Shown: one piece after another, positions 2,551 to 19,264 of the stretch
Layout: each line of letters opens with the position of its first letter
Numbering within the stretch: position 1 is the stretch's first letter
From: Bombyx mori
Lineage: Eukaryota; Arthropoda; Insecta; Lepidoptera; Bombycidae
Length of the DNA stretch: 64,000 nucleotides
Direction: 5' to 3'
Assembly: GCF_030269925.1 (NCBI RefSeq)
Contig: NC_085135.1
Location: 4,774,753 to 4,838,752, forward strand
The notes under the pieces: generated by a model
Databases searched by the model: none
Told to the model about the DNA's origin: nothing
Seen by the model: the letters and a program-made list of their open reading frames with translations, nothing else
Program-made: the position numbers and the translations under genes

Positions 2551-2660
2551 GCGCAGTAGCACAATCATTCTTAATGCGCATATTCCTGTTATTATCCAAG
2601 GGCCAGTGTGCGTCGCCCTTCCTTAAGTGTCTTCTGCATTTGGTTACCAGTGATCCCTGT

Positions 2661-3258
2661 AAAATGGTCCCAGACCCACTCGTACGAAGATCGTATTAAA
2701 AACGTACAAGTGCATTCCACACGCAGAGCGTATTCAAACGTGTGAAGCTTCCCGACACGCTGACAGTACTCAAACGTGCCGAGGCTTCTCAATACGCCAG
2801 CCTAGGCCGATTGTATTGAGGCATCTCACCGTGTAGGATTAATCACACGAGTGAGGGATACGTAAAATGGTCCCAGGCCCACTCGTACGAAGATCGTATT
2901 AAAAACATACGAGTGCATTCCACACGCAGAGCGTATTCAAACGTGTGAAGCTTCCCGACACGCCGACCGTACTCAAACGTGCCGAGGCTTCTCAATACGC
3001 CAGCCTAGGCCGATTGTATTGAGGCATCTCACCGTGTAGGATTAATCACACGAGTGAGGGATACGTAAAATGGTCCCAGACCCACTCGTACGAAGATCGT
3101 ATTAAAAACGTACAAGTGCATTCCACACGCAGAGCGTATTCAAACGCGTGAAGCTTCCCGGCACGCCGACCGCACTCAAACGTGCCGAGGCTTCTCAATA
3201 CGCCAGCCTAGACCAATCGTATTGAGGCATCTCACCGTGACTCCGAGTGAGGGATACG
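2661..3258. repeat. 203-bp tandem repeat, three copies
   Basis: Units starting aaaatggtccca occur at 2661, 2864 and 3067, an exact 203-base spacing. Each contains CGTACGAAGATCGTATT, two blocks with CTCAATACG or ATTCAAACGTGTGAAGC, and GAGTGAGGGATACG. The third copy is slightly shortened near its end (about 3230-3245). The array sits between the pol remnant and the 3' LTR of Gypsy-A, the same position as the 107-bp repeats of Gypsy-B. Confidence 0.9.
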
Positions 3259-3342
3259 TAACTAGAGAGCAATCATCTATAGCTCACCCTTCAGGTTCAC
3301 CATAGGAATACGTATATTTGTAAACAATGATCATTATTAACT

Positions 3343-6906: not shown

Positions 6907-7297
6907 TATATATATATAGTTCTGTCTCAATTTCTCATAAAACGCTAATAAGAGCGAAAAAGACAACCTAGGTAACTTTTTACAGCTTTCACTGCATATT
7001 AAAGCAAAATGGTTTTTTTTTCGGGTTGAAATTCTTCCGAAAAAATTTGGGGTACTCAATGACGCGCGCCAAGTACGATATTTTAATTTTTTTATTTTTA
7101 AATTTTCAAAAAAAAATTTTTAATTTTTTCGACATTATGACGGTTTCTCGGTATTTTTTTGTATTTCACATCTTTTTGTAGAGAATGAAAGTTATTGAAG
7201 TCTTATTTTTTTTGTAAAGTGCAAATGTCATTGAGATGAGTTTTATTTTTTTATAATTAATAATTAATTAATTTTTTACAGTGAAACTGTTTTTGTT
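6907..7297. other. AT-rich spacer, no gene
   Basis: Begins with the TA tract that flanks Gypsy-A and continues as AT-rich sequence with homopolymer A and T runs. No ORF or repeat family is recognised. It ends in the target site of the RTE-like LINE. Confidence 0.5.
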
Positions 7298-7310
7298 CGG
7301 ATCTCAGTTA

Positions 7311-7331
7311 ATAATAATAATAATAATAATA
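7311..7331 (-). repeat. (TAA)n 3' tail of RTE-like LINE
   Basis: A run of ATA/TAA units directly follows the left copy of the target duplication. RTE-clade elements end in short tandem repeats rather than poly(A), so this marks the 3' end. Confidence 0.8.
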
Positions 7332-7433
7332 AGCCCTTTATTTCTTGCTTTACAAAGTTTAAAAAAAAAAAAAGATATAATAAATATAAATGTATGTAGT
7401 ATGTAAAAGAGTTTTGTAATAAATCAGTAAAAT

Positions 7434-10415
7434 TTAGTTAGCAAGAACCCCGGATCGGGTAAAGGCCTCCTCCAAAGATGCCCAAGCGTCTCTATCCTGT
7501 GCTACGTCTATCCAGTTTGGGCCAGCTGTTCGTCTAAGATCGTCTTCCCATCTGGTTAGTGGTCTCCCTCGACTTCTCTTGCCCGTTGGGCCGCTCCAAG
7601 ATGTAACTTTCGCAGTCCATCTCTGGTCTGTATATCTCGCGACATGGCCAGCCCATTTCCATTTTAGTTTTAGCGCATAAGTCAGGGCGTCGGTCGCGTT
7701 AGTGGTTCTTCTTATCTTAGTATGCCTTACCTTATCCATCTTCCTTATTTTGAGCATACTCCTCTCCATCCCCCTTTGACAGGTCCTGATTTTATTTGTG
7801 GCTTTAGAGGAGAACTTCCACGTCTGGCACCCATACGTCAGGCATGGTAATAGACTTGAGTTCATAACTTTTGTTTTGATATCTGTGGGCATATTACTTT
7901 TGAAAATTTCCTTTAGGTTCCAAAATTTATTCCATGTCGATTGAACCCTTCTTTCCATTTCTAGTATGTCGCTGTTTTTGGCAAAACTTAGCAGTTTTCC
8001 CAAGTATATGTATTTCTCTACATATTCTAGTGGCTCTCCATTGATTTTTATAGGATTTTTCCATCTGTTGTTGGTCATTATCTTGGTTTTAGTAAGGTTC
8101 ATCTCGAGCCCCACCTTGATACTGGCTTGGTGTAGAGTCTCTATCATGTATTGCATCTGGCCGGCCGTCTCTGACAGAAGTGCTAGGTCGTCTGCGAACC
8201 TAAGATGACTTAAATATTCTCCTTTTATACAAAGTCCTATTTTGTGAAAGTCCAGCTTGCCAATGATGTTTTCCAGGATTGATATAAATAGTATTGGGGA
8301 AAGGGGGTCCCCCTGTCTTACTCCTCTTTGAATGGGAAACCGTGGGCCAATGGACTCGAGTTTGATCCTTCCTTTATTGTTATTGTATATATTTTGGATA
8401 GTCTTTATATATACTTCTTCAACTCCTTGCTCTGCCAAACTTTCCCATATGCTGTTGTGCGAAACGGTGTCGAAAGCTTTTTGGTAGTCAATAAAAGTTA
8501 TATATAGAGTTCTCTGGTGTTCTTGATATTTTTCTATTATTAACTCTATTGTATGGATGTGGTCAATTGTTGAAAAGCCTTTTCTAAAACCCGCTTGTTC
8601 TACTGGTTGTTTTGTTTCTAGTGTTTTACTTATTCGAGTTTTAATAACTGTAGAGAACAATTTGTATAGGCTAGGAAGTAGGCTGATTGGTCTATAGTTG
8701 CCAATATTTTTAGGGTCTCCTTTTTTATATAACAATATGATGTTTGCTTCCGACCACTGAGTGGGAGTTACAGAGTGTTGTAGTATCGAGTTAAAGAGTT
8801 TCGCTAACGGTGCAGCCAGAATTAATTGAGCAGCTTTCAGTGCTTCGTTTGTAATTTTGTCGGAGCCTGGGCTTTTTTCAAGTTTCAGTTTTTTTATTGT
8901 TTCTATGATTTCGTTTTCATTTATCTCTGTATATTTTTTAGATTGGTCTACTTTGCTGTTATTTGGCGTTGTTATATTGTTATTGTTGCTACTGTATAGA
9001 TTTCTATAAAACTCTGTAGCAGTATTGACAATATCTTTTCGTTTGTATATTTCTTTGTCCACATTTTTCAATCCTTTTATCCAGCACTTATTTGTTCGAA
9101 GCTCCTTAAATGGTTTCTTCGTGCTACCGCAAAGCTGTAGGTGTCTCAGTATAGTGTCTTGTTTGTATTTTAAATAATCTTTTTTTATATATTTGTTGAC
9201 TATTTTGTATAAGGCAGAGAGTTCGTTTCTCATGGAACGAGTTTTATTTTTGGTTGACTGTAGTACTTTTCTTCTTTGTAGCAATCTTTCAGTTCTTTCT
9301 TGTAGTATTTTATATTTATAATTTCTCTTGTTTATTTTTGAAATTTTTAGGCTTTCAGAAATAGCATTGCTAATTTTATCATAACAAGTATTTATCGTTT
9401 CGTTTGTTTGGTAGATAGCTGCCTCAGATAGTTTTAGTTTAAGGTTGTCCTTATATTTTTCTATTTCCTTTAGGCTTCTAAGTTGGTATTCTTGTTTATT
9501 TGTAAATCGGGCTCTGCTTAGTTTATGTTTAGAGAGCTTTACTGATCCTCTTATTGCACGATGATCAGATGGGTAGTTCAGGTTCAGAACTTCGAGGTTC
9601 TCAAATAATTTTGGTTGGTTTGTGAGAATGTAGTCAATCTCGTTTTTGTGAAGCCCATTCGGCGAAATCCAAGTCCATTTTCGGTTTGGGTGTTTCTTAA
9701 AACAGGTATTTATTATTGTCAACTTGTGTTCGAGCGCAAAGTTCACAAGTTTCTGGCCTCTGCTATTTCTTGTGCCGTGTCCATGTTTTTTCACGACTAA
9801 ATCTTCGTTTTCTTTAGGGGCTCCTACCTTAGCGTTGAAATCGCCCATAAGTATGATATGTGTGTGTGTAGTTGTTAGTGCTTTCTCAATTGACTCATAT
9901 AATTCTTCAATTTCAGTTTCTTTTGCTTCTGTCGTAGGGAAGTAGACTTGCAGAATGGATATCTTATGGTCTCCTATGTTTAAGTTGAGTATAGCTAAGC
10001 GCTCTGATATACCAATGAAGCTCTCGATATTGTTTTTTATTGTCTTGTTTATTATAAAGCCCACCCCATATTGTCCTGCTGTTTGTCCCTTGTAGCAGAG
10101 TATAAAGTTCTCATGTTCTTTAATTTCACAACCTTGACGTCTTACTTCTGAGATTCCCATAATGTCATATTTTATAGTACTTAAGCATTTTTCTAATTCC
10201 AATAAACGTTCATATGAAGATAGAGTCTTAACATTGTATGTTAATATTTTTAGTTGATGATTTTGTTTAGTGTTTGTGTTCGTAGGGATTGTGATTTTCT
10301 TTGGAGGGTTGTGGTCATAATCCTCCACGGTGACCAACCGGGTTGGGGGATTTGTTATGTTTTTTGTATTTGAATATTTCTTTGTTGGATCTGTGTGGAG
10401 AGGAGCAGCTAATTG
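7434..10415 (-). CDS. RTE-like ORF2: AP endonuclease + reverse transcriptase
   Basis: About 993 aa when counted from the codon after the UAG. The N-terminal third is an AP-like endonuclease: LKILTYNVKTL, ISEVRR, ILMGDFNAKVG, WTWISPNGLHKNEIDYIL and SDHRAI give the catalytic Asn, Glu, Asp/Asn and Asp-His residues. The RT follows, with LYKKGDPKNIGNYRPISLL, AGFRKGFST, FIDYQKAFDTV, QRGVRQGDPLSP and the catalytic HLRFADDLALL. The C-terminus carries GHVARYTDQRWT and RSRGRPLTRWEDDLR, usual for RTE. It nicks target DNA and primes reverse transcription. No ATG occurs between the UAG and the endonuclease core; the first Met is in YDIMGISEV, inside the domain. Translation therefore probably depends on ORF1. 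Confidence 0.92.
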   Translation of the reverse strand, partial: QLAAPLHTDPTKKYSNTKNITNPPTRLVTVEDYDHNPPKKITIPTNTNTKQNHQLKILTYNVKTLSSYERLLELEKCLSTIKYDIMGISEVRRQGCEIKEHENFILCYKGQTAGQYGVGFIINKTIKNNIESFIGISERLAILNLNIGDHKISILQVYFPTTEAKETEIEELYESIEKALTTTHTHIILMGDFNAKVGAPKENEDLVVKKHGHGTRNSRGQKLVNFALEHKLTIINTCFKKHPNRKWTWISPNGLHKNEIDYILTNQPKLFENLEVLNLNYPSDHRAIRGSVKLSKHKLSRARFTNKQEYQLRSLKEIEKYKDNLKLKLSEAAIYQTNETINTCYDKISNAISESLKISKINKRNYKYKILQERTERLLQRRKVLQSTKNKTRSMRNELSALYKIVNKYIKKDYLKYKQDTILRHLQLCGSTKKPFKELRTNKCWIKGLKNVDKEIYKRKDIVNTATEFYRNLYSSNNNNITTPNNSKVDQSKKYTEINENEIIETIKKLKLEKSPGSDKITNEALKAAQLILAAPLAKLFNSILQHSVTPTQWSEANIILLYKKGDPKNIGNYRPISLLPSLYKLFSTVIKTRISKTLETKQPVEQAGFRKGFSTIDHIHTIELIIEKYQEHQRTLYITFIDYQKAFDTVSHNSIWESLAEQGVEEVYIKTIQNIYNNNKGRIKLESIGPRFPIQRGVRQGDPLSPILFISILENIIGKLDFHKIGLCIKGEYLSHLRFADDLALLSETAGQMQYMIETLHQASIKVGLEMNLTKTKIMTNNRWKNPIKINGEPLEYVEKYIYLGKLLSFAKNSDILEMERRVQSTWNKFWNLKEIFKSNMPTDIKTKVMNSSLLPCLTYGCQTWKFSSKATNKIRTCQRGMERSMLKIRKMDKVRHTKIRRTTNATDALTYALKLKWKWAGHVARYTDQRWTAKVTSWSGPTGKRSRGRPLTRWEDDLRRTAGPNWIDVAQDRDAWASLEEAFTRSGVLAN

Positions 10416-10421
10416 CTATGC
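10407..10421 (-). promoter_or_regulatory. putative leaky stop: UAG CAA UUA between ORF1 and ORF2
   Basis: The minus strand reads AAG GCA TAG CAA TTA GCT. The TAG (10418-10416) ends ORF1, and the next codons continue in the same frame into ORF2 with no further stop. UAG followed by CAA UUA matches the CARYYA context known to promote stop-codon readthrough in tobamoviruses. Together with the missing ORF2 start codon, this suggests that an ORF1-ORF2 fusion is made by readthrough. The function is inferred. Confidence 0.65.
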
Positions 10422-11234
10422 CTTGTTTTTGGAGATTTCTTTATCAATTGTAGTGTTTTTATTTGTTAAGAAGTTTAGCATGCCCGGCTTAATTACTCTT
10501 TCTGAGGTACTGTGTGTTCTTCTCGCCATGGGATCGTGCTGTGATTGTGGTTTGTTCTTCTTTTTTGTTTGTGTGTTTATTTCCTTTGGCGTGTCCTCGG
10601 TAGGTTTTGTTGGTGAAGGAGAAAGCTTTCTTTTAGATGTTTGTTTAGGTATGACCAGTTTATCATATTTTAGGAAAGCCATGTTTCCTTTTTCTCTCTC
10701 TATTTTTAACTGTTCTTGTAGTTGTTTCCTCTTTTCTAAGACTTGTTTAGGGTAGTCTTCTTTCATATAGTAACCTGTGTCTTGCAGTGCTCTTTTTTGT
10801 TTAAAGATTTTGATCTTCATGTCCAGGTTTAAGAAAGATACCACTACTGGACGTGGTCTATCGTTTTTCTTTCCTAGTCTTTTAACTTCTTGTAGGTCGC
10901 TATAGGTTAGTTTGACTGAGAAATGTTGTTCTAACCATTTAAGCATATTTTTTCCTAGGATATCATATGAAGATTCCAGTTCTTCGATGCCGAAGAAAAC
11001 TATATTTCTTTGTCTGGCTTGCTTTTCTAGAAAGCTGATTCTTTTCTCCTGATTATCTACTATTTCTTTTAATTTTTCATGTTTCTCTTCTAGGGCAAAA
11101 AATTTTTCCTCTAATATTTTATTTATATTTTGTGTAACTTGTTGTGTCACGTTTTCACCACTTTCTCTAATAGCTTTTTTGTGATCGTCTAATTCCAGTT
11201 GGATTACTTTTAGAGCTTTCATAATTTCATCCAT
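10416..11234 (-). CDS. RTE-like ORF1: coiled-coil nucleic-acid-binding protein
   Basis: 272 aa from an ATG at 11234. Residues about 30-75 are rich in E, K and L heptads (KILEEKFFALEEKHEKLKEI), indicating a coiled coil. Next comes RNIVFFGIEELE and EVKRLGKKNDRPRPVVVSFL, the pattern of the RRM-like domain of L1-type ORF1 proteins. The C-terminal tail is basic (KRKLSPSPTKP, TKKKNKPQ). The predicted role is binding element RNA as a trimer or multimer. Many RTE elements have no such ORF1 or only a short one, so this is notable. It shares its frame with ORF2. Confidence 0.85.
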   Translation of the reverse strand: MDEIMKALKVIQLELDDHKKAIRESGENVTQQVTQNINKILEEKFFALEEKHEKLKEIVDNQEKRISFLEKQARQRNIVFFGIEELESSYDILGKNMLKWLEQHFSVKLTYSDLQEVKRLGKKNDRPRPVVVSFLNLDMKIKIFKQKRALQDTGYYMKEDYPKQVLEKRKQLQEQLKIEREKGNMAFLKYDKLVIPKQTSKRKLSPSPTKPTEDTPKEINTQTKKKNKPQSQHDPMARRTHSTSERVIKPGMLNFLTNKNTTIDKEISKNKA

Positions 11235-11806
11235 GATTGTTATTGTGGTTTATCAGTAGTAATTTGTTTACATGTATGTGTCGCCTTCTAGTGGCAAGTC
11301 TTGATATTTATTTCGAGCGGAACGTTAGATCGATGTGATTGTAAGCTGTTTCAGAACCCAAGTAGCTTTGTCGGACTTTGAAGTAGTACGTGCTTGTTTT
11401 AGCAGATGGCGTTGCTAGGGTCAGAGTATTTTAGATGATTTTGAAAAAAACGGTGCTTCTTATTATAAAAGAGGTTATGTTTTCACTAAGATGTATTTAT
11501 TATCACTTTTATTCATTCTTAAACACTCTTTAGCACCAAATAATGAACAAAGACCGTCCAAAAAGTCTTGTACTTGATTATAAACGCGAACAGTTCACAC
11601 AAAAAGGTTCACAAGTCACTAGTAACTTTTGGTCGTTTTACTTTCTTCGGATAGTGTCTTTGTTGGTATCTTCAATATATGACGTTATTTATCAAATTTC
11701 CTTCCACAATATCTCTTTATTTTGATGATATATACTTTTTAAATATTTTTATATGAATGTTTTTAACGGAGCCGATGCTAACTGTGGCACTATAGCGCCC
11801 TCTCTC
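11235..11806 (-). promoter_or_regulatory. 5' UTR of RTE-like LINE
   Basis: Non-coding 572 bases between the right target duplication and the ORF1 ATG. It should contain the internal promoter by analogy with other LINEs, but I see no defined core motif. A 60-codon plus-strand ORF here has no support. Confidence 0.5.
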
Positions 11807-12109
11807 CGGATCTCAGTTACCAGGTCATAAAATCCATTAAAAATGTAGGAATAATTCCAGCGCACCCTGGCGGCCGTAGATTACCATGTATTCTCGAAGT
11901 ATTTATAGTCTGTGGCATATCACTTTTTACATCGAAAAATACTTTTTGGCGGGAACGCGAGCAGTGAAGTTGTGTGATTTGTTTTATTTTGTCTATTTAG
12001 TGTTTCTTCAGGTTTAAATGTGTAATAACGGTGGTTTATTAACTGTTTAATATCTGTGAAAGTGCACAAATGTGGGAAAATGAAACAAAGCTGCTAGCAA
12101 CTAGCTGCT

Positions 12110-12177: not shown

Positions 12178-12634
12178 AAATCAAATCAAATCAAAAAAAA
12201 TTTTATTCAACATAAATGAAAGTACATACTTGTTGAACGTCAAAAAAAAAACTACCGCCAATTCACAAGAACTAGCCTCCGTCCTGAGAAGAATTGGCAA
12301 GAAACTCAGCGGGCATGTCTTTTTTTTTTACATATGAAATTATTATTTATTTATTTTTTAATATTAGATTTTTTTTTAAATATGAATTTTTTACAATGAG
12401 TAATATAACGTAACAATTACTACAATATTGAAATGCCTGGAGCGAGCAACTCATTCCCACTTTGTGCAATCTTCTAGATAATCATTGACTTTATAGTAAG
12501 CTTTATTGCACAGATGTTCTTTATTAGTTTTCTTAAACCTATGTATATGTAGGTTCTGAACATCTTGTGGGATTTTGTTGTACAGGCGCACAGACAAACA
12601 CCCGAATGAATTTCGTATCTTAATCATCTCTATC
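12178..12634 (-). mobile_element. 5'-truncated LINE 3' end
   Basis: Begins with (AATC)n and an AT tract and contains the block gaattggcaagaaactcagc typical of lepidopteran LINE tails. On the minus strand, 12600-12430 reads VRLYNKIPQDVQNLHIHRFK and then KAYYKVNDYLEDCTKW, the C-terminus of CR1-like reverse transcriptase proteins. It interrupts unit 1 of the surrounding repeat at gaaaaaatctca / ctatctcagtaaat, with a short duplication near atctca. Confidence 0.7.
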
Positions 12635-13285
12635 TCAGTAAATGACCACCATTTTACTGCGATTATATTTCATCCCATATCATCTCATTTCATTAAATTT
12701 CATCCCAGTTGATTAATGTCTCAAATTAATCATCTTCATTTCATTTCACTCCATATTATCATTTTTCATAAAATTAAGAATATAAAGTAAAATAAGACAT
12801 GACTTAAAGGTCTTAGTTACCAGGTCATAAAATCTCTTAAAAAAAAAACATCGAAAAAGGACTTTTTGGCGGGAACGCGAGGAGTGAAGTTGTGTGATTT
12901 GTTTTATTTTGTCTATTTAGTGTTTCTTCAGGTTTAAATGTGTAATAATGGTGGTTTATTAACTGTTTAATATCTGTGAAAGTGCACAAATGTGGGATAA
13001 TGAAACAAAGCTGCTGGACGTAACTTCTCGGGTTCCTCCAAAAAGTCCACTGAAAAAATCTCAGTAAATGACCACCATTTTACTGCGATTATATTTCATC
13101 CCATATCATCTCATTTCATTAAATTTCATCCCAGTTGATTAATGTCTCAAATTAATCATCTTCATTTCATTTCACTCCATATTATCATTTTTCATAAAAT
13201 TAAGAAAATAAAGTAAAATAAGACATGACTTAAAGGTCTTAGTTACCAGGTCATAAAATCTCTTAAAAAAAAAATACATCTAAAA

Positions 13286-14526: not shown

Positions 14527-14729
14527 CGGCCATACTGACAGTACTTCGTCCTCGAAGTATTGTGTTACTATTTTATTTATAATATATGAGTAGGTATATG
14601 CGATTCATTAATCAACATAATATACATGGCACAGAAAAAAAAAGAAAGTAGTCAAAACATTTCAAACAAGTCGAATGAATCATTTGTATAGACACGATGG
14701 TCCCCTTTAAATAAGTAACAGAGTAATTT

Positions 14730-15127
14730 GCCAACTACATAGACATGTCGATCACATTCACCCGCTGCTTGTGAGATAATCGACACCAAATAGAAGGTCG
14801 ACCAGCGGTACTCTGACTTCGAGTAATGCCAACTACATAGACATGTCAATCACATTCACCCGCTGCTTGTGAGATAATTGACACCAAATAGTAGGCCGAC
14901 CAGCGGTACTCGGATTGAAAAATTATTGAGTAATGCCAACTACATAGACATGTCAATCACATTCACCCGCTGCCTGTGAGATAATTGACACCAAATAGAA
15001 GGCCGACCAGCGGTACTCGGATTGAAAAATTATTGAGTAATGCCAACTACATAGACATGTCAATCACATTCACCCGCTGCCTGTGAGATAATTGACACCA
15101 AATAGTAGGCCGACCAGCGGTACTCAG
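14730..15127 (-). repeat. 98/107-bp tandem repeats in Gypsy-B 3' UTR, four copies
   Basis: Units starting gccaactacatagacatg occur at 14730, 14828, 14935 and 15042, and each contains cattcacccgctgc, gataattgacaccaaatag and gaccagcggtactc. The first unit is 98 bases and more divergent, the next two are 107, and the last stops after ggtactc. Lying between the pol stop and the LTR, they form part of the transcript's 3' UTR. Confidence 0.93.
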
Positions 15128-15335
15128 ACAGATAAAATTTAAAGCCAAATATTTTTACTCATTCACAATATGACGTGAGTTTCTCAATTTCTTTTTGTAC
15201 CATGTATATATTTTTAGTAACATTTTATGTAGGTAACCCATGTTCTTAAAAAAAAAACTAATTTAAATACAAAACATTATATAGTTGAAAAATAAATATA
15301 ATCATCAAACAATTATAATCTTGAAATCTAAGAAA
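15128..15335 (-). other. Gypsy-B 3' UTR, proximal part
   Basis: AT-rich non-coding sequence directly after the pol stop. There is no env-like ORF between pol and LTR, so the element has gag-pol only. Confidence 0.6.
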
Positions 15336-18300
15336 TCACAAATTATCATCAACCCATTCTCCTGGCCAAAACCGTAATTTTTCCTTAGCGACAACTATAT
15401 TCCTAACATTACCGTTGCCTTTCAGAGTATAGCGATCATTTGGAAGGATAGACTGAATTTCGTAAGGGCCCTTAAATCTAGATCTTAATTTATCATTACG
15501 CCTATGATCTTGGCTGACATAGACCAAATCACCTATATTGTATTGTTTATTATTCCGCCTAACATGATCAAATCGTTGCTTAAATGTTTCTGCTATTTTT
15601 TGTAGTCTCTGTTTGGCTATTTCACGATCAGCTTGGACGTCAATATTCTGGTGTAAATCCTCATCATTAATAATTCCGTTTAGATGAGATTGTACTATAG
15701 GTATATTTGCTTCTATACCGGTTAGTAAACGTAAGGGGGTGAAACCAGTCGATTTTTGTACTGTCGTGTTAATTGACTGCTGTACTTTTGGCAATACGTT
15801 CGGCCACTCTGACGGCTCCTCGCACATAGTGTTTAACATATTGACTACAGTAGCCACATAACGCTCAACCTGACCATTGCCTCGAGGTGTACCAGTAGCT
15901 ATCATGTGGTGTTCGATATTCAGTTCTCTAAAAAGGTCTTTGATTTGATTAGAGCTAAAATTCGTACCACGATCAGTTATTACCAATGATGGTGTACCAA
16001 ATAGTGTAACAGTTTCTCGGATAATTGGTATTAATTCTCCCGCACTTAGTGTTTTAAGGGGTTTTAAGAGACAAAATTTTGTGAAACCATCAACTAATAA
16101 TAGTATGTGCTTAAAGCCTTCCGTGGTTGTTGGAAAAGGCCCTGTGCAATCTAAATGTATGGTATGGAATGGTACAGCAACTTTATCGATCGGATGTAAT
16201 AACCCTTGTTTAGGACCAGAGACTCCCTTTTTCTTAACGCAAGTAAGACAATGGTTAATATATTTTTTGATAAAAGATGTTATCCCTGGGAACCAAAAAT
16301 ATTGTCGGATTTTATGTAAAACTTTATCGAACCCCACATGACAATTTTCATCATGAAATAGTTTTAAGATTTTTAATCTACATCCCTTCGGCACAAACAA
16401 CCTCGGCTCAGCATCAGGACTAGTTTTATAATGTAATAAATTATTTTTAATTACATATTGGTTAGTGTCTAAGTTACCGGCTTGTAATTGCGACATTAGG
16501 GTCTGGGTTTCGGGGTCATTTGTTTGCGAGATTTTTAACCAAGACTCGGGACTTATATTATCGGCTTCAATAAGATTAACTTTAAAATAATGCTGCCGTT
16601 CTGAAGGAGCGGAAACAGGATTGCGACTTAGAAAATCAACATGACTGATGAATTTACCTTTTTTATACTGGATATCAAACTGAAAATCCTGCATAAAGGT
16701 CCACCAACGTGCTACCCTAGGTGACAAATCTTTTTTAGTCATGGTTGATTTTATTGCATTGCAATCAGTAATTATTGTAAATTTAATGCCAAGAAGGTAT
16801 ACTCGAAAGTGTTTTAATGCATTAAAAATGGCAAGTGTTTCTAGGTCATAAGAGCAGTACTTGGATTCTGCTGGACTTGTCCGTTTACTATAATAAGCGA
16901 CCACCTTATTCACGTTGTCTGACTTTTGTAATAATATTGCTCCATAACCTATAGCACTAGCATCGGTGTGTAACTCTGTTGGACGCTGAGGGTCAAATAT
17001 TGTCAAAAGAGGTTTGGAGGTAAGACGATCAATTACATACTTTCGTGCTCTATCTTGTTCAATGCCCCATTCCCATTTTTCGTTGTTTCTAGTCAATTTT
17101 GTTATACAAGCTGTCTTCGAGGCAAAATCGGGTATAAATTTCCTAAAATAACTACATAAGCCCATAAATTGTCGGACTTGTTTAACATTAGAGGGTGTTG
17201 GTGAATTTGCTAAAGCATTGGTTTTAGATTCACCCGGCCTAACACCTTCACGAGATATTTGTCTCCCCAAATACTCGATGCTATCTAGGAAGAATTTGCA
17301 TTTCTTAAGATTAACTGTAAAGCCACAAGAGCTAAGTGCCGAAATTGTTTGTTCCAAATAAGATAAACCTTCTTCAATTGTATTAAACGGGATCAAAATG
17401 TCATCAATATACACCAAAAGAAATGGTAAATGGCCTACTGCCTTAGTGATAGCTCTTTGAAACACCGACGGGCCATTACAAATTCCAAAAGGCATTTTCG
17501 TAAATTCGTAATGTCCGTCTGGTGTTACAAAGGCGGTGTATTTAGTGGAGTTACTGGAAATAGGGATTTGATAAAAGCCATTTTTCATATCTATGGATAT
17601 ATAATACGTTGAATTTCCCAATTTATCTATTTGATCTTCAATGAGCGGGAGAGGATATCGATCCTTTTCTATTATCTTATTTAACGCTCTATAATCAATG
17701 CACATTCTATCGCTTCCATCTTTTTTTTTAACTAAAATCATGGGACTAGCGAAAGATGAATTACTTTCTTTGATTATTTTTTTATTCAATAAATCTTCCA
17801 CTAATTCTTTAACCTTCTCTCTTTCTATCGGGGCTAATCGGTATGGCCTGTAATAGATTACCTCATCTCTTTTTAATTTTATTTCAAGTTCACCAGTCTT
17901 TACATGACCAATATTGTCCAAAACAGAGGGGTATTTTTGAAAAATAGCCCTTATCCTATCCTGCAGCTGATGATCTAGACTGTTTATCGCACCTGAGAGT
18001 TCCATTATACTATTAAGGTTAACGTTTTGTATCAAATTTACGTTATAACTAGATTTCGTAATACTTTTTCGCACTAATCGAGAACCTAAATAGTCGGTCA
18101 CTAATGCAATGTCGGGATGTTGGATAGCATTTCTGCCAATCAACAGACCGTATTCAAAATCGGTATCCGTAATGACAAAAATATCTAGTTCGATACACAA
18201 TTCATCAAATTTAACAGGAACTGTAATTTTGGCAAATACTTTCAAGGTACCTTTGCCTATCCCGCAAAGAGATAAATAACATGGGTTAAAGTGGACGCCA

Positions 18301-18419
18301 AGACGTTCTGCTATAGATTGTTTGATTATACTACAGCTTGATCCTGTATCAATAAGTGACTGAATTAAGACATTATTAATATGTACTGGTGTTAAAACTA
18401 ATTCGCTTTGTCTAAAAAA
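15336..18419 (-). CDS. pol: Gypsy-B Pol polyprotein (PR-RT-RNase H-integrase)
   Basis: About 1,027 aa from the frameshift site; it has no needed ATG of its own. Domains in order: aspartic protease LIDTGSSCSII (about residues 20-110); RT with MCIDYRALNKI, KMPFGICNGPSVFQ and catalytic LLVYIDDILIPF; RNase H with LHTDASAIGYGAILLQ and YDLETLAIFNALKHFR; integrase with the HHCC finger (HDENCHVGF ... HCLTCVKKKG), then DDE residues in HLDCTGPF, VITDRGTNFSS and GTPRGNGQVER; and a GPY/F tail RSRFKGPYEIQSILPNDRY. All catalytic residues are present and there is no internal stop, so the enzyme set is predicted functional. Confidence 0.94.
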   Translation of the reverse strand, partial: FFRQSELVLTPVHINNVLIQSLIDTGSSCSIIKQSIAERLGVHFNPCYLSLCGIGKGTLKVFAKITVPVKFDELCIELDIFVITDTDFEYGLLIGRNAIQHPDIALVTDYLGSRLVRKSITKSSYNVNLIQNVNLNSIMELSGAINSLDHQLQDRIRAIFQKYPSVLDNIGHVKTGELEIKLKRDEVIYYRPYRLAPIEREKVKELVEDLLNKKIIKESNSSFASPMILVKKKDGSDRMCIDYRALNKIIEKDRYPLPLIEDQIDKLGNSTYYISIDMKNGFYQIPISSNSTKYTAFVTPDGHYEFTKMPFGICNGPSVFQRAITKAVGHLPFLLVYIDDILIPFNTIEEGLSYLEQTISALSSCGFTVNLKKCKFFLDSIEYLGRQISREGVRPGESKTNALANSPTPSNVKQVRQFMGLCSYFRKFIPDFASKTACITKLTRNNEKWEWGIEQDRARKYVIDRLTSKPLLTIFDPQRPTELHTDASAIGYGAILLQKSDNVNKVVAYYSKRTSPAESKYCSYDLETLAIFNALKHFRVYLLGIKFTIITDCNAIKSTMTKKDLSPRVARWWTFMQDFQFDIQYKKGKFISHVDFLSRNPVSAPSERQHYFKVNLIEADNISPESWLKISQTNDPETQTLMSQLQAGNLDTNQYVIKNNLLHYKTSPDAEPRLFVPKGCRLKILKLFHDENCHVGFDKVLHKIRQYFWFPGITSFIKKYINHCLTCVKKKGVSGPKQGLLHPIDKVAVPFHTIHLDCTGPFPTTTEGFKHILLLVDGFTKFCLLKPLKTLSAGELIPIIRETVTLFGTPSLVITDRGTNFSSNQIKDLFRELNIEHHMIATGTPRGNGQVERYVATVVNMLNTMCEEPSEWPNVLPKVQQSINTTVQKSTGFTPLRLLTGIEANIPIVQSHLNGIINDEDLHQNIDVQADREIAKQRLQKIAETFKQRFDHVRRNNKQYNIGDLVYVSQDHRRNDKLRSRFKGPYEIQSILPNDRYTLKGNGNVRNIVVAKEKLRFWPGEWVDDNL

Positions 18420-19264
18420 TTTACTTCGTTATCAATTTTAGAAGGGTCCGTTTTGGGTTTATATCTACAGTAAGAATCTAAATGCCCGGGTTTTTTGCAA
18501 TAAGTACAAAATTTTCTTTTTTCATTATTTGATCCTTGTTCTGAATTAGGTTTATTATCTTGGGTACTTTTTTTACTGTAACATTGTTGTTTGGTGTGAC
18601 CGATTTTACCACAGTTAAAACACCTTGTGTCATCGGGTTTAGAATCAGTCTTAAAGCGCTTAGAGGGTTGCGCATTGTAAGAGTCTTTACTGTCTATTGG
18701 CCTTTTTTTTGTTTTCGCGTAAGAAGTAAATAGGGCAATTAATTCTGAAGTAGTTTTAACATTGCTGTTAAACGAAGCCATTTTTACATTAACATCGCAT
18801 ATACTACCACAGACTAATTCAATCAATTGTAATTCCGTAAATGTAATTTTTGTATTCTTTAGTAACCTAATTTTTTCCCTTGCGTACTCGCAATAAGAAT
18901 CTGCAGTTTCCGACGTGTATAGTACTGCCTTATGAAGTTTTTCTGCTAGATTCTTTTTCTCAGGGTATAAAGCTACCAGCTCTAAACGTAAATTGTCCCA
19001 CGAACGACCCTCAGCCGGGTCCCATGTTTCAAACCACAATAAGGCGGATCCCTTAAGGGCCTTACCAGCTTTGGCGACTGTTGCGATGTTACTCCATCCA
19101 AACTCTTTGGAGAGGGTTTCAATATTGTTGCACCATGATTCAGCACCAAGGTCACTTTTAGCAGGATCAAATACGGGCAGGGCGACCTCGCTGTCGTTCT
19201 GGCGGGAACCGGAAACTGCGTCTTTGATGGCCTTCAGAAGCTCTTGTAAGATAGGTAAATCCAT
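18398..19264 (-). CDS. gag: Gypsy-B Gag (capsid and nucleocapsid)
   Basis: 288 aa from the ATG at 19264 (MDLPILQELLKAIKD). A longer open frame runs into the primer-binding site but has no ATG. The centre has the gag capsid pattern FDPAKSDLGAESWC ... GSALLWFETWDP ... LVALYPEKKNLAEKL. Two zinc knuckles follow: CFNCGKIGHTKQQC and CTYCKKPGHLDSYC, both CCHC and both intact, which bind genomic RNA. It ends NFLDKAN at TAG, overlapping pol in the -1 frame at a slippery heptamer. Confidence 0.92.
   Translation of the reverse strand: MDLPILQELLKAIKDAVSGSRQNDSEVALPVFDPAKSDLGAESWCNNIETLSKEFGWSNIATVAKAGKALKGSALLWFETWDPAEGRSWDNLRLELVALYPEKKNLAEKLHKAVLYTSETADSYCEYAREKIRLLKNTKITFTELQLIELVCGSICDVNVKMASFNSNVKTTSELIALFTSYAKTKKRPIDSKDSYNAQPSKRFKTDSKPDDTRCFNCGKIGHTKQQCYSKKSTQDNKPNSEQGSNNEKRKFCTYCKKPGHLDSYCRYKPKTDPSKIDNEVNFLDKAN
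18413..18419 (-). promoter_or_regulatory. -1 ribosomal frameshift site U UUU UUA
   Basis: In the gag frame the codons are AAT TTT TTA, giving the heptamer T TTT TTA in the correct X XXY YYZ phase. A -1 slip enters the pol frame (TTT TTT AGA CAA). Gag ends five codons later. This is the same heptamer used by HIV-1 gag-pol (known). I have not assessed a downstream stem-loop or pseudoknot. Confidence 0.8.

Follow-up and report, generated by a model that had tools for sequence, protein, structure and literature searches.

A full-length long interspersed nuclear element (LINE) with two open reading frames (ORFs) lies on the minus strand of a 64,000-nt stretch of Bombyx mori DNA (NC_085135.1, positions 4,774,753 to 4,838,752), called the window here, which corresponds to part of contig C29 in an assembly of 461.7 Mb. 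In this element ORF1 ends in UAG, and the codons that follow, CAA UUA, continue in the same frame through an endonuclease and a reverse transcriptase (EN-RT). Programmed readthrough of the ORF1 stop, which would yield an ORF1–ORF2 fusion, is likely the best explanation for this element and for 20 related clusters. The limits of the LINE are set by identical 13-bp target-site duplications (TSDs), and its parts are as follows (window coordinates).

7311..11806, minus strand: LINE (4,496 bp) between the 13-bp TSDs; homology of a 98.8% identical copy on contig C17 starts at 11807, agreeing with the 5' limit
7298..7310: TSD at the element's 3' end, CGGATCTCAGTTA, identical to 11807-11819
11807..11819: TSD at the element's 5' end, CGGATCTCAGTTA
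7311..7332, minus strand: (TTA)n simple-repeat tail, from the sequence
11235..11806, minus strand: 5' untranslated region, from the TSD to the ORF1 ATG
10416..11234, minus strand: ORF1, 272 aa plus stop, L1 ORF1p-like, with a predicted coiled coil (residues 2-74) and RNA recognition motif (RRM; residues 77-159)
11234-11232, minus strand: start ATG of ORF1
10416..10418, minus strand: UAG, putative leaky stop at the end of ORF1
10410..10415, minus strand: CAAUUA (CARYYA) readthrough context, CAA at 10415-10413 and TTA at 10412-10410
7434..10415, minus strand: ORF2 frame, 993 codons plus stop (7436-7434), without ATG before the EN core
9561..10244, minus strand: endonuclease domain, PF03372 (Pfam), ORF2 residues 58-285
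8043..8714, minus strand: reverse transcriptase domain, PF00078 (Pfam), ORF2 residues 568-791

A preliminary description of this DNA had reported the TAG followed by CAA TTA in frame through EN and RT, and had proposed that ORF2 is made as a readthrough fusion. The junction lies where it was placed, with the signal on the minus strand, and the ORF2 frame has, as claimed, no ATG before the EN core, its first Met sitting in YDIMGISEV within the endonuclease domain. The same contig carries a near-identical copy at a distance of 77 kb (1 mismatch in 3,714 bases compared); TAG CAA TTA is retained both in it and in the C17 copy. In the near-identical copy that serves as cluster representative (L009), none of the 56 codons before the EN core is an in-frame ATG. 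Comparison of the C29 and C17 copies gives a ratio of nonsynonymous to synonymous rates (dN/dS) of 0.33 for ORF1 (3 synonymous and 4 nonsynonymous changes) and 0.24 for ORF2 over 738 codons (11 synonymous, 10 nonsynonymous), and from this comparison both ORFs look to be under constraint.

The element had also been called RTE-like, which fits only one of its halves. Pfam matches in ORF2 are Exo_endo_phos, Exo_endo_phos_2 and RVT_1; its homologues include the Bombyx endonuclease-reverse transcriptase P0196, and three sequences that we ourselves labelled RTE stand as an outgroup (100/100), a provisional placement. RTE elements generally have a single ORF, whereas a full ORF1 stands upstream of the EN-RT here. 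ORF1, one residue different from a Bombyx mori protein, resembles L1 ORF1p both in sequence and in predicted fold, with coiled coil, RRM and C-terminal domain (Foldseek structure comparison, best 1,000 chains).

The ORF1–ORF2 junction among related elements

Relatives were collected by a search of the same genome that took the N-terminal 238 residues of ORF2 as query and gave 150 scored places from 652 candidates. Of these places, 110 were obtained (20 short ones picked as representatives) and 109 loci were analysed, falling into 29 clusters at 80% identity; all DNA is from one genome, and the loci were sampled through ORF2. Searches of viral and genome contig collections found no relatives. 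Cluster counts use one representative each, omit L114 (no ORF2 hit), F28 and F29 (no or broken ORF1), and count F10b with F10 and F11b with F11.

ORF1 and ORF2 share one frame, split by a single stop, in 21 of the 29 clusters. This assignment rests on an in-phase ORF1 BLAST hit in 19 of the 21 and on an in-frame ORF1-like tail alone in F13 and F18, which are single, decayed copies. The stop is TAG in 16 representatives, TAA in five and TGA in none; the next codon is CAA in 18, and an A precedes the stop in 19. Strict CARYYA follows the stop at 12 of the 21 junctions, against 30 of 7,993 background in-frame codon pairs of the same elements, and CARYYR at 15 junctions, against 38 pairs. The second codon after the stop is TTA, TCA, CGA, CTA, TTG, TCG or CCA (Leu, Ser, Pro, Arg). 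Since the amino acid varies and every one of these codons is YNR, selection would act on the nucleotides, and this constancy is a better argument than binomial values for the motif, which overstate the case because the clusters share ancestry.

Locus by locus, the 21 clusters comprise 91 loci: ORF1 is in phase in 67 of them and out of phase in nine, and 15 have no ORF1 hit. The junction could be read by alignment in 79 of the 91 (it is truncated or unalignable in the other 12), with TAG at 61 and TAA at 18; cluster F08 includes loci of both kinds. A sense codon at this place, which would have counted against readthrough according to the preliminary description, occurs at none of the 79, and CAA comes next at 72. 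Its expectation that UAG and CARYYA would be kept in other copies is borne out for the stop and for CAA, and less so for the exact letters, given UAA in five clusters and strict CARYYA in 12. Beyond the 21 clusters, two decayed copies of a further subfamily (L004 and L005) have TAA CAA CTA after ORF1.

From the stop to the EN core, frame 0 of the 21 clusters contains no stop in 1,126 codons, whereas the other two frames contain 57 and 58 (the EN core of F27 was placed at 55 codons in this count). The extension is open, in frame and under constraint, and leads into the EN-RT domains. No in-frame ATG precedes the EN core in 18 of the 21 clusters. These features persist across diverged subfamilies: at the ORF2 N-terminus the other clusters are mostly 40-56% identical to the window, and the linker from stop to hairpin (see below) ranges from 8 to 27 codons and appears, from its sequence, to evolve quickly. 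The gene model P0126 from Choristoneura, placed with F03 in the ORF2 tree, fuses ORF1 to ...QLPCLSPN...LPSRLVTVEDHDQNPP, with Gln-Leu at the matching site as judged by eye and not by an aligner.

A pseudoknotted RNA block at the ORF2 N-terminus

A 58-nt block at the N-terminus of ORF2 (window 10297-10354, minus strand) can form a 7-bp stem and a 3-bp stem whose loop, UGGUC, pairs with a downstream GACCA. Its elements are:

10344..10350, minus strand: stem 1, 5' side (the window has one C.A mismatch in the block)
10321..10327, minus strand: stem 1, 3' side
10338..10340, minus strand: stem 2, 5' side, CGG
10328..10330, minus strand: stem 2, 3' side, CCG
10332..10336, minus strand: loop UGGUC, 5' side of the pseudoknot helix
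10312..10316, minus strand: GACCA, 3' side of the pseudoknot helix

The distance from the stop codon to the start of the block is 19-76 nt in readthrough representatives. Across 29 sequences, pairing holds in 93.3% of 434 cells, and both sides have changed in 7 of 15 pairs (30 cells); compensatory examples are the loop UAGUC with GACUA in F22 and UUGUC with GACAA in F24. Pairing, both-side changes and covariation score were matched by 0 of 500 shuffles, a control that leans in the structure's favour because the structure was drawn from the same sequences and relatedness is lost in shuffling. Fourteen further pair types were unremarkable (214 of 500 shuffles), and sliding the pseudoknot partner along the sequence lowers pairing to 41-55%. 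RNAalifold alone recovers 7 of the stem pairs. In F15 the hairpin sits in another reading frame relative to ORF2 while the ORF1–ORF2 frame is intact, so the block is kept, at least partly, as an RNA feature; a first impression of the PSRLVTVEDYDHNPP block as a protein motif was given up on the same ground.

A model of the block was run on 58 sources, the window plus 57 of 118 loci, many of which had served as its training rows; it located the block in 54 of the 58. There was no hit in L052, L093, L113 and L118, yet the letters of L113 match those of L112. Searching Rfam gave no match to the block and, in six loci, nothing up to E 1; within 7000-12000 there are two matches outside the block, both below the gathering score. 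The pseudoknot is common to readthrough, frameshift and single-ORF elements. In the single-ORF RTE-like elements L112 (415-471) and L113 (about 418-473) it lies immediately 5' of the ORF's AUG; at that place the two-ORF elements have CCCTCCA or similar and no ATG. Two elements, L057 (1649-1706 and 1776-1832) and L101 (75-126 and 162-219), carry the hairpin twice, as if elements had been joined hairpin to hairpin, which suggests recombination or template switching there.

Sister clusters with a frame offset and a proposed exchange of modules

Six further clusters (F14, F19, F22, F23, F24 and F26) have a short overlap between ORF1 and ORF2 in different frames. The preliminary description's expectation of a single frame is upheld in 67 of the 76 loci with an ORF1 hit and fails in the remaining nine and in these six clusters. 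Five of the six, F14, F19, F22, F24 and F26, have ORF2 in the -1 frame and carry, in the overlap and in the phase of ORF1, a slippery site of the form X XXY YYZ: A AAA AAC or A AAA AAU, ending 0-12 nt before the ORF1 stop. The two F23 copies that were read have A-runs of unlike length and hence unlike frames. As background, A AAA AAY occurs at 19 of 5,141 codons in ORF1 of the readthrough clusters, and at 1 of 210 when the count is confined to the last 11 codons. F14, F23 and F24 carry an in-frame ATG ahead of the core. To judge from these sites, the sister group probably reaches the same ORF1–ORF2 fusion by -1 frameshifting. In the gene model P0169 from Ostrinia, ...HPKKQL... stands at a place that seems by eye to correspond, which is compatible with a slippery site and is indirect. 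L075, L092, L099, L103, L110 and their relatives, in which A AAA AAC/U precedes the ORF1 stop and ORF2 lies in the -1 frame, are likely a group of -1 frameshift LINEs.

Structures that stimulate -1 frameshifting lie 5-9 nt downstream of the slippery site. In the five frameshift clusters with such a site the conserved pseudoknot block begins 63-96 nt downstream; its distance from the recoding sites is too great for a classical stimulator.

A single origin of frameshifting was considered and is doubtful: the ORF1 tree joins five of the six frameshift clusters (99/98), but all six as a clade have an approximately unbiased (AU) p of 0.0175, and the four that are placed in the ORF2 tree (two through the stand-in proteins P0164 and P0168) fall in three places. 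The ORF1 and ORF2 trees disagree elsewhere too. F11 and F11b are 91% alike in ORF1 (of 180 residues) and 84% in the linker, and 56% in the protein after the pseudoknot; for F10 and F10b the linker is 72% alike and the part after the pseudoknot 43%. The ORF2 tree separates the members of both pairs into different groups. ORF2 modules would thus appear to have been exchanged at or near the hairpin, and the recoding signal would come with the ORF1 module in each case. F09 and F13, taken for recombinants in an ungapped comparison, were abandoned as such, being sisters in the ORF2 tree.

A wider scheme, for which we judge the chances even, is that throughout this LINE lineage a recoding fusion to an L1-type ORF1p is the sole form in which EN-RT is made. 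The signal would travel with the ORF1 module, UAR-CAA-YYR readthrough and A AAA AAC -1 frameshifting being interchangeable, and the ORF2 modules, starting at an old RTE pseudoknot that once preceded their own AUG, would be swapped by recombination near it.

Proposed readthrough, its alternatives and known systems

On the readthrough explanation, the main product would be ORF1p, an L1-type RNA-binding protein. Ribosomes would partly read through the ORF1 stop in its tobamovirus-type UAG-CAA-YYR context, giving as a minor product the ORF1–ORF2 fusion with endonuclease and reverse transcriptase, and readthrough would fix a ratio of products like that of gag to gag-pol. What is observed is the shared frame, the stop, the nucleotides after it and an ATG-free open frame, all of which recur in diverged subfamilies of this genome; that ribosomes read through the stop, at what rate they do so, and that the fusion is the working enzyme are what we infer. 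The junction tests in this genome accordingly lend support to the fusion proposed in the preliminary description, with readthrough itself as the inferred step.

Several observations weigh against it. The codon after the stop is not CAA in F15 (GAA, 5 loci), F03 (CCA) or F18 (CGA). Earlier expectation of no upstream ORF2 ATG in relatives fails in F18, F25 and F27, which carry one or two in-frame ATG 3' of the hairpin. As protein, the stop-to-hairpin linker is weakly constrained (pN/pS of about 0.8 for both pairs in which changes are numerous enough), and in ORF2 codons 1-58 the C29 and C17 copies differ by 3 nonsynonymous changes and no synonymous one. The nine out-of-phase loci, single and decayed-looking copies, count on the same side. 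The looser contexts, the UAA stops and the offset sister clusters speak against a uniform strategy.

The covarying pseudoknot after the stop could instead serve initiation. ORF2 might be started separately, the pseudoknotted RNA recruiting ribosomes in the manner of an internal ribosome entry site or by termination-reinitiation, with a non-AUG start nearby. The position of the block just 5' of the AUG in single-ORF L112, and of the same letters in L113, fits such a role, and termination-reinitiation is reported for SART1 and L1 (PMC5972666). We nevertheless regard a separate start as improbable: it leaves unexplained the frame shared with the ORF1 stop, the stop-CAA-YYR context and the slippery sites of the sister clusters; F15 keeps the ORF1–ORF2 frame with its hairpin in another; and 6 of the 21 clusters lack any in-frame CTG, GTG, TTG, ACG or ATH from the stop to the hairpin. 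Initiation at the GTG of VTVED, which lies within the hairpin, was dropped because 14 of 21 clusters have GTG there.

Removal of the stop by splicing, with a spliced mRNA encoding the fusion, is very unlikely. The gene models P0126 and P0169 do join ORF1 to ORF2, presumably via predicted introns, and the AG of UAG could pass for a 3' splice site, but UAA, which lacks AG, stands in 5 of the 21 clusters, and the 9 nt before each stop are mostly A-rich with no pyrimidine tract. A LINE copied from spliced RNA would moreover drop the segment, and the open frames listed for the 150 scored places reach at most 1,082 aa, whereas an uninterrupted fusion would be about 1,270 aa. We hold it just as hard to credit that the arrangement was inherited without function, as an ordinary bicistronic LINE with ORFs in frame by chance. 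Because the clusters share ancestry, frame and CAA could have come down to all of them; yet N-termini this diverged and linkers this variable have kept the stop-CAA and a frame 0 free of stops. A 2A (StopGo) reading of ...DYDHNPP was dropped by eye, NPGP being absent.

Readthrough of the tobamovirus replicase stop uses the type I context UAG CARYYA. With UAG or UAA followed by CARYYA as the definition, the window element (UAG CAA UUA) is an exact match, and the 12 CARYYA clusters share the likeness; the LINEs differ in having the stop between ORF1p and EN-RT, in also using UAA and in a looser context (CARYYR in 15 of 21). In the gammaretrovirus MuLV, gag-pol is made by UAG readthrough with a downstream pseudoknot (PMC5009743). 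The LINE likewise has an in-frame UAG ahead of its polymerase frame and a pseudoknot downstream, but it is a non-LTR (long terminal repeat) element with a CAA YYR context, and its block begins 19-76 nt after the stop and is common to frameshift clusters. Insect R1 LINEs have acquired tobamovirus-like helicases (PMC4686597), which is a curious parallel and no evidence of origin.

RTE elements are described as generally single-ORF (PMC13295347), and one ORF is described for the BmRTE LINEs of the RTE clade in Bombyx, for which in-frame stops near the 5' ends are mentioned in passing (Tay et al. 2010, PMC2887409). BmRTE resembles the window LINE in its simple-repeat tail and in a presumably related EN-RT, and differs from it by the full L1-type ORF1 upstream and the stop with a conserved recoding context. 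Unusual translation of LINE ORFs is known from SART1 (stop-restart at UAAUG) and L1 (reinitiation), which both yield a separate ORF2p (PMC5972666) in contrast to the fusion proposed here, and from HeT-A, where frameshifting concerns the Gag-like protein (PMC5009743). Among the open-access papers listed, judged by title and the first lines of the abstract, no account of a LINE using programmed readthrough was recognised.

How LINEs keep ORF2 expression low is a standing question, and reported routes to ORF2 expression include stop-restart, reinitiation and 2A (StopGo) sequences (PMC5972666). A gag-pol-like answer, if true, would add to these routes. It would make the two interchangeable recoding signals in one genome a natural experiment on the evolution of recoding, would render the ratio of ORF1p to ORF2p testable with short reporters, and would account for gene models that split or oddly join these elements.

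Elsewhere in the window, 15336-18428 on the minus strand holds 1,030 codons from stop to stop that resemble, by eye, the pol of an LTR retrotransposon. Repeats occur at 2659-3267 (three units of 203 bp) and 14723-15141 (four of 107 bp), and two 217-bp copies lie 426 bp apart in 12632-13274.

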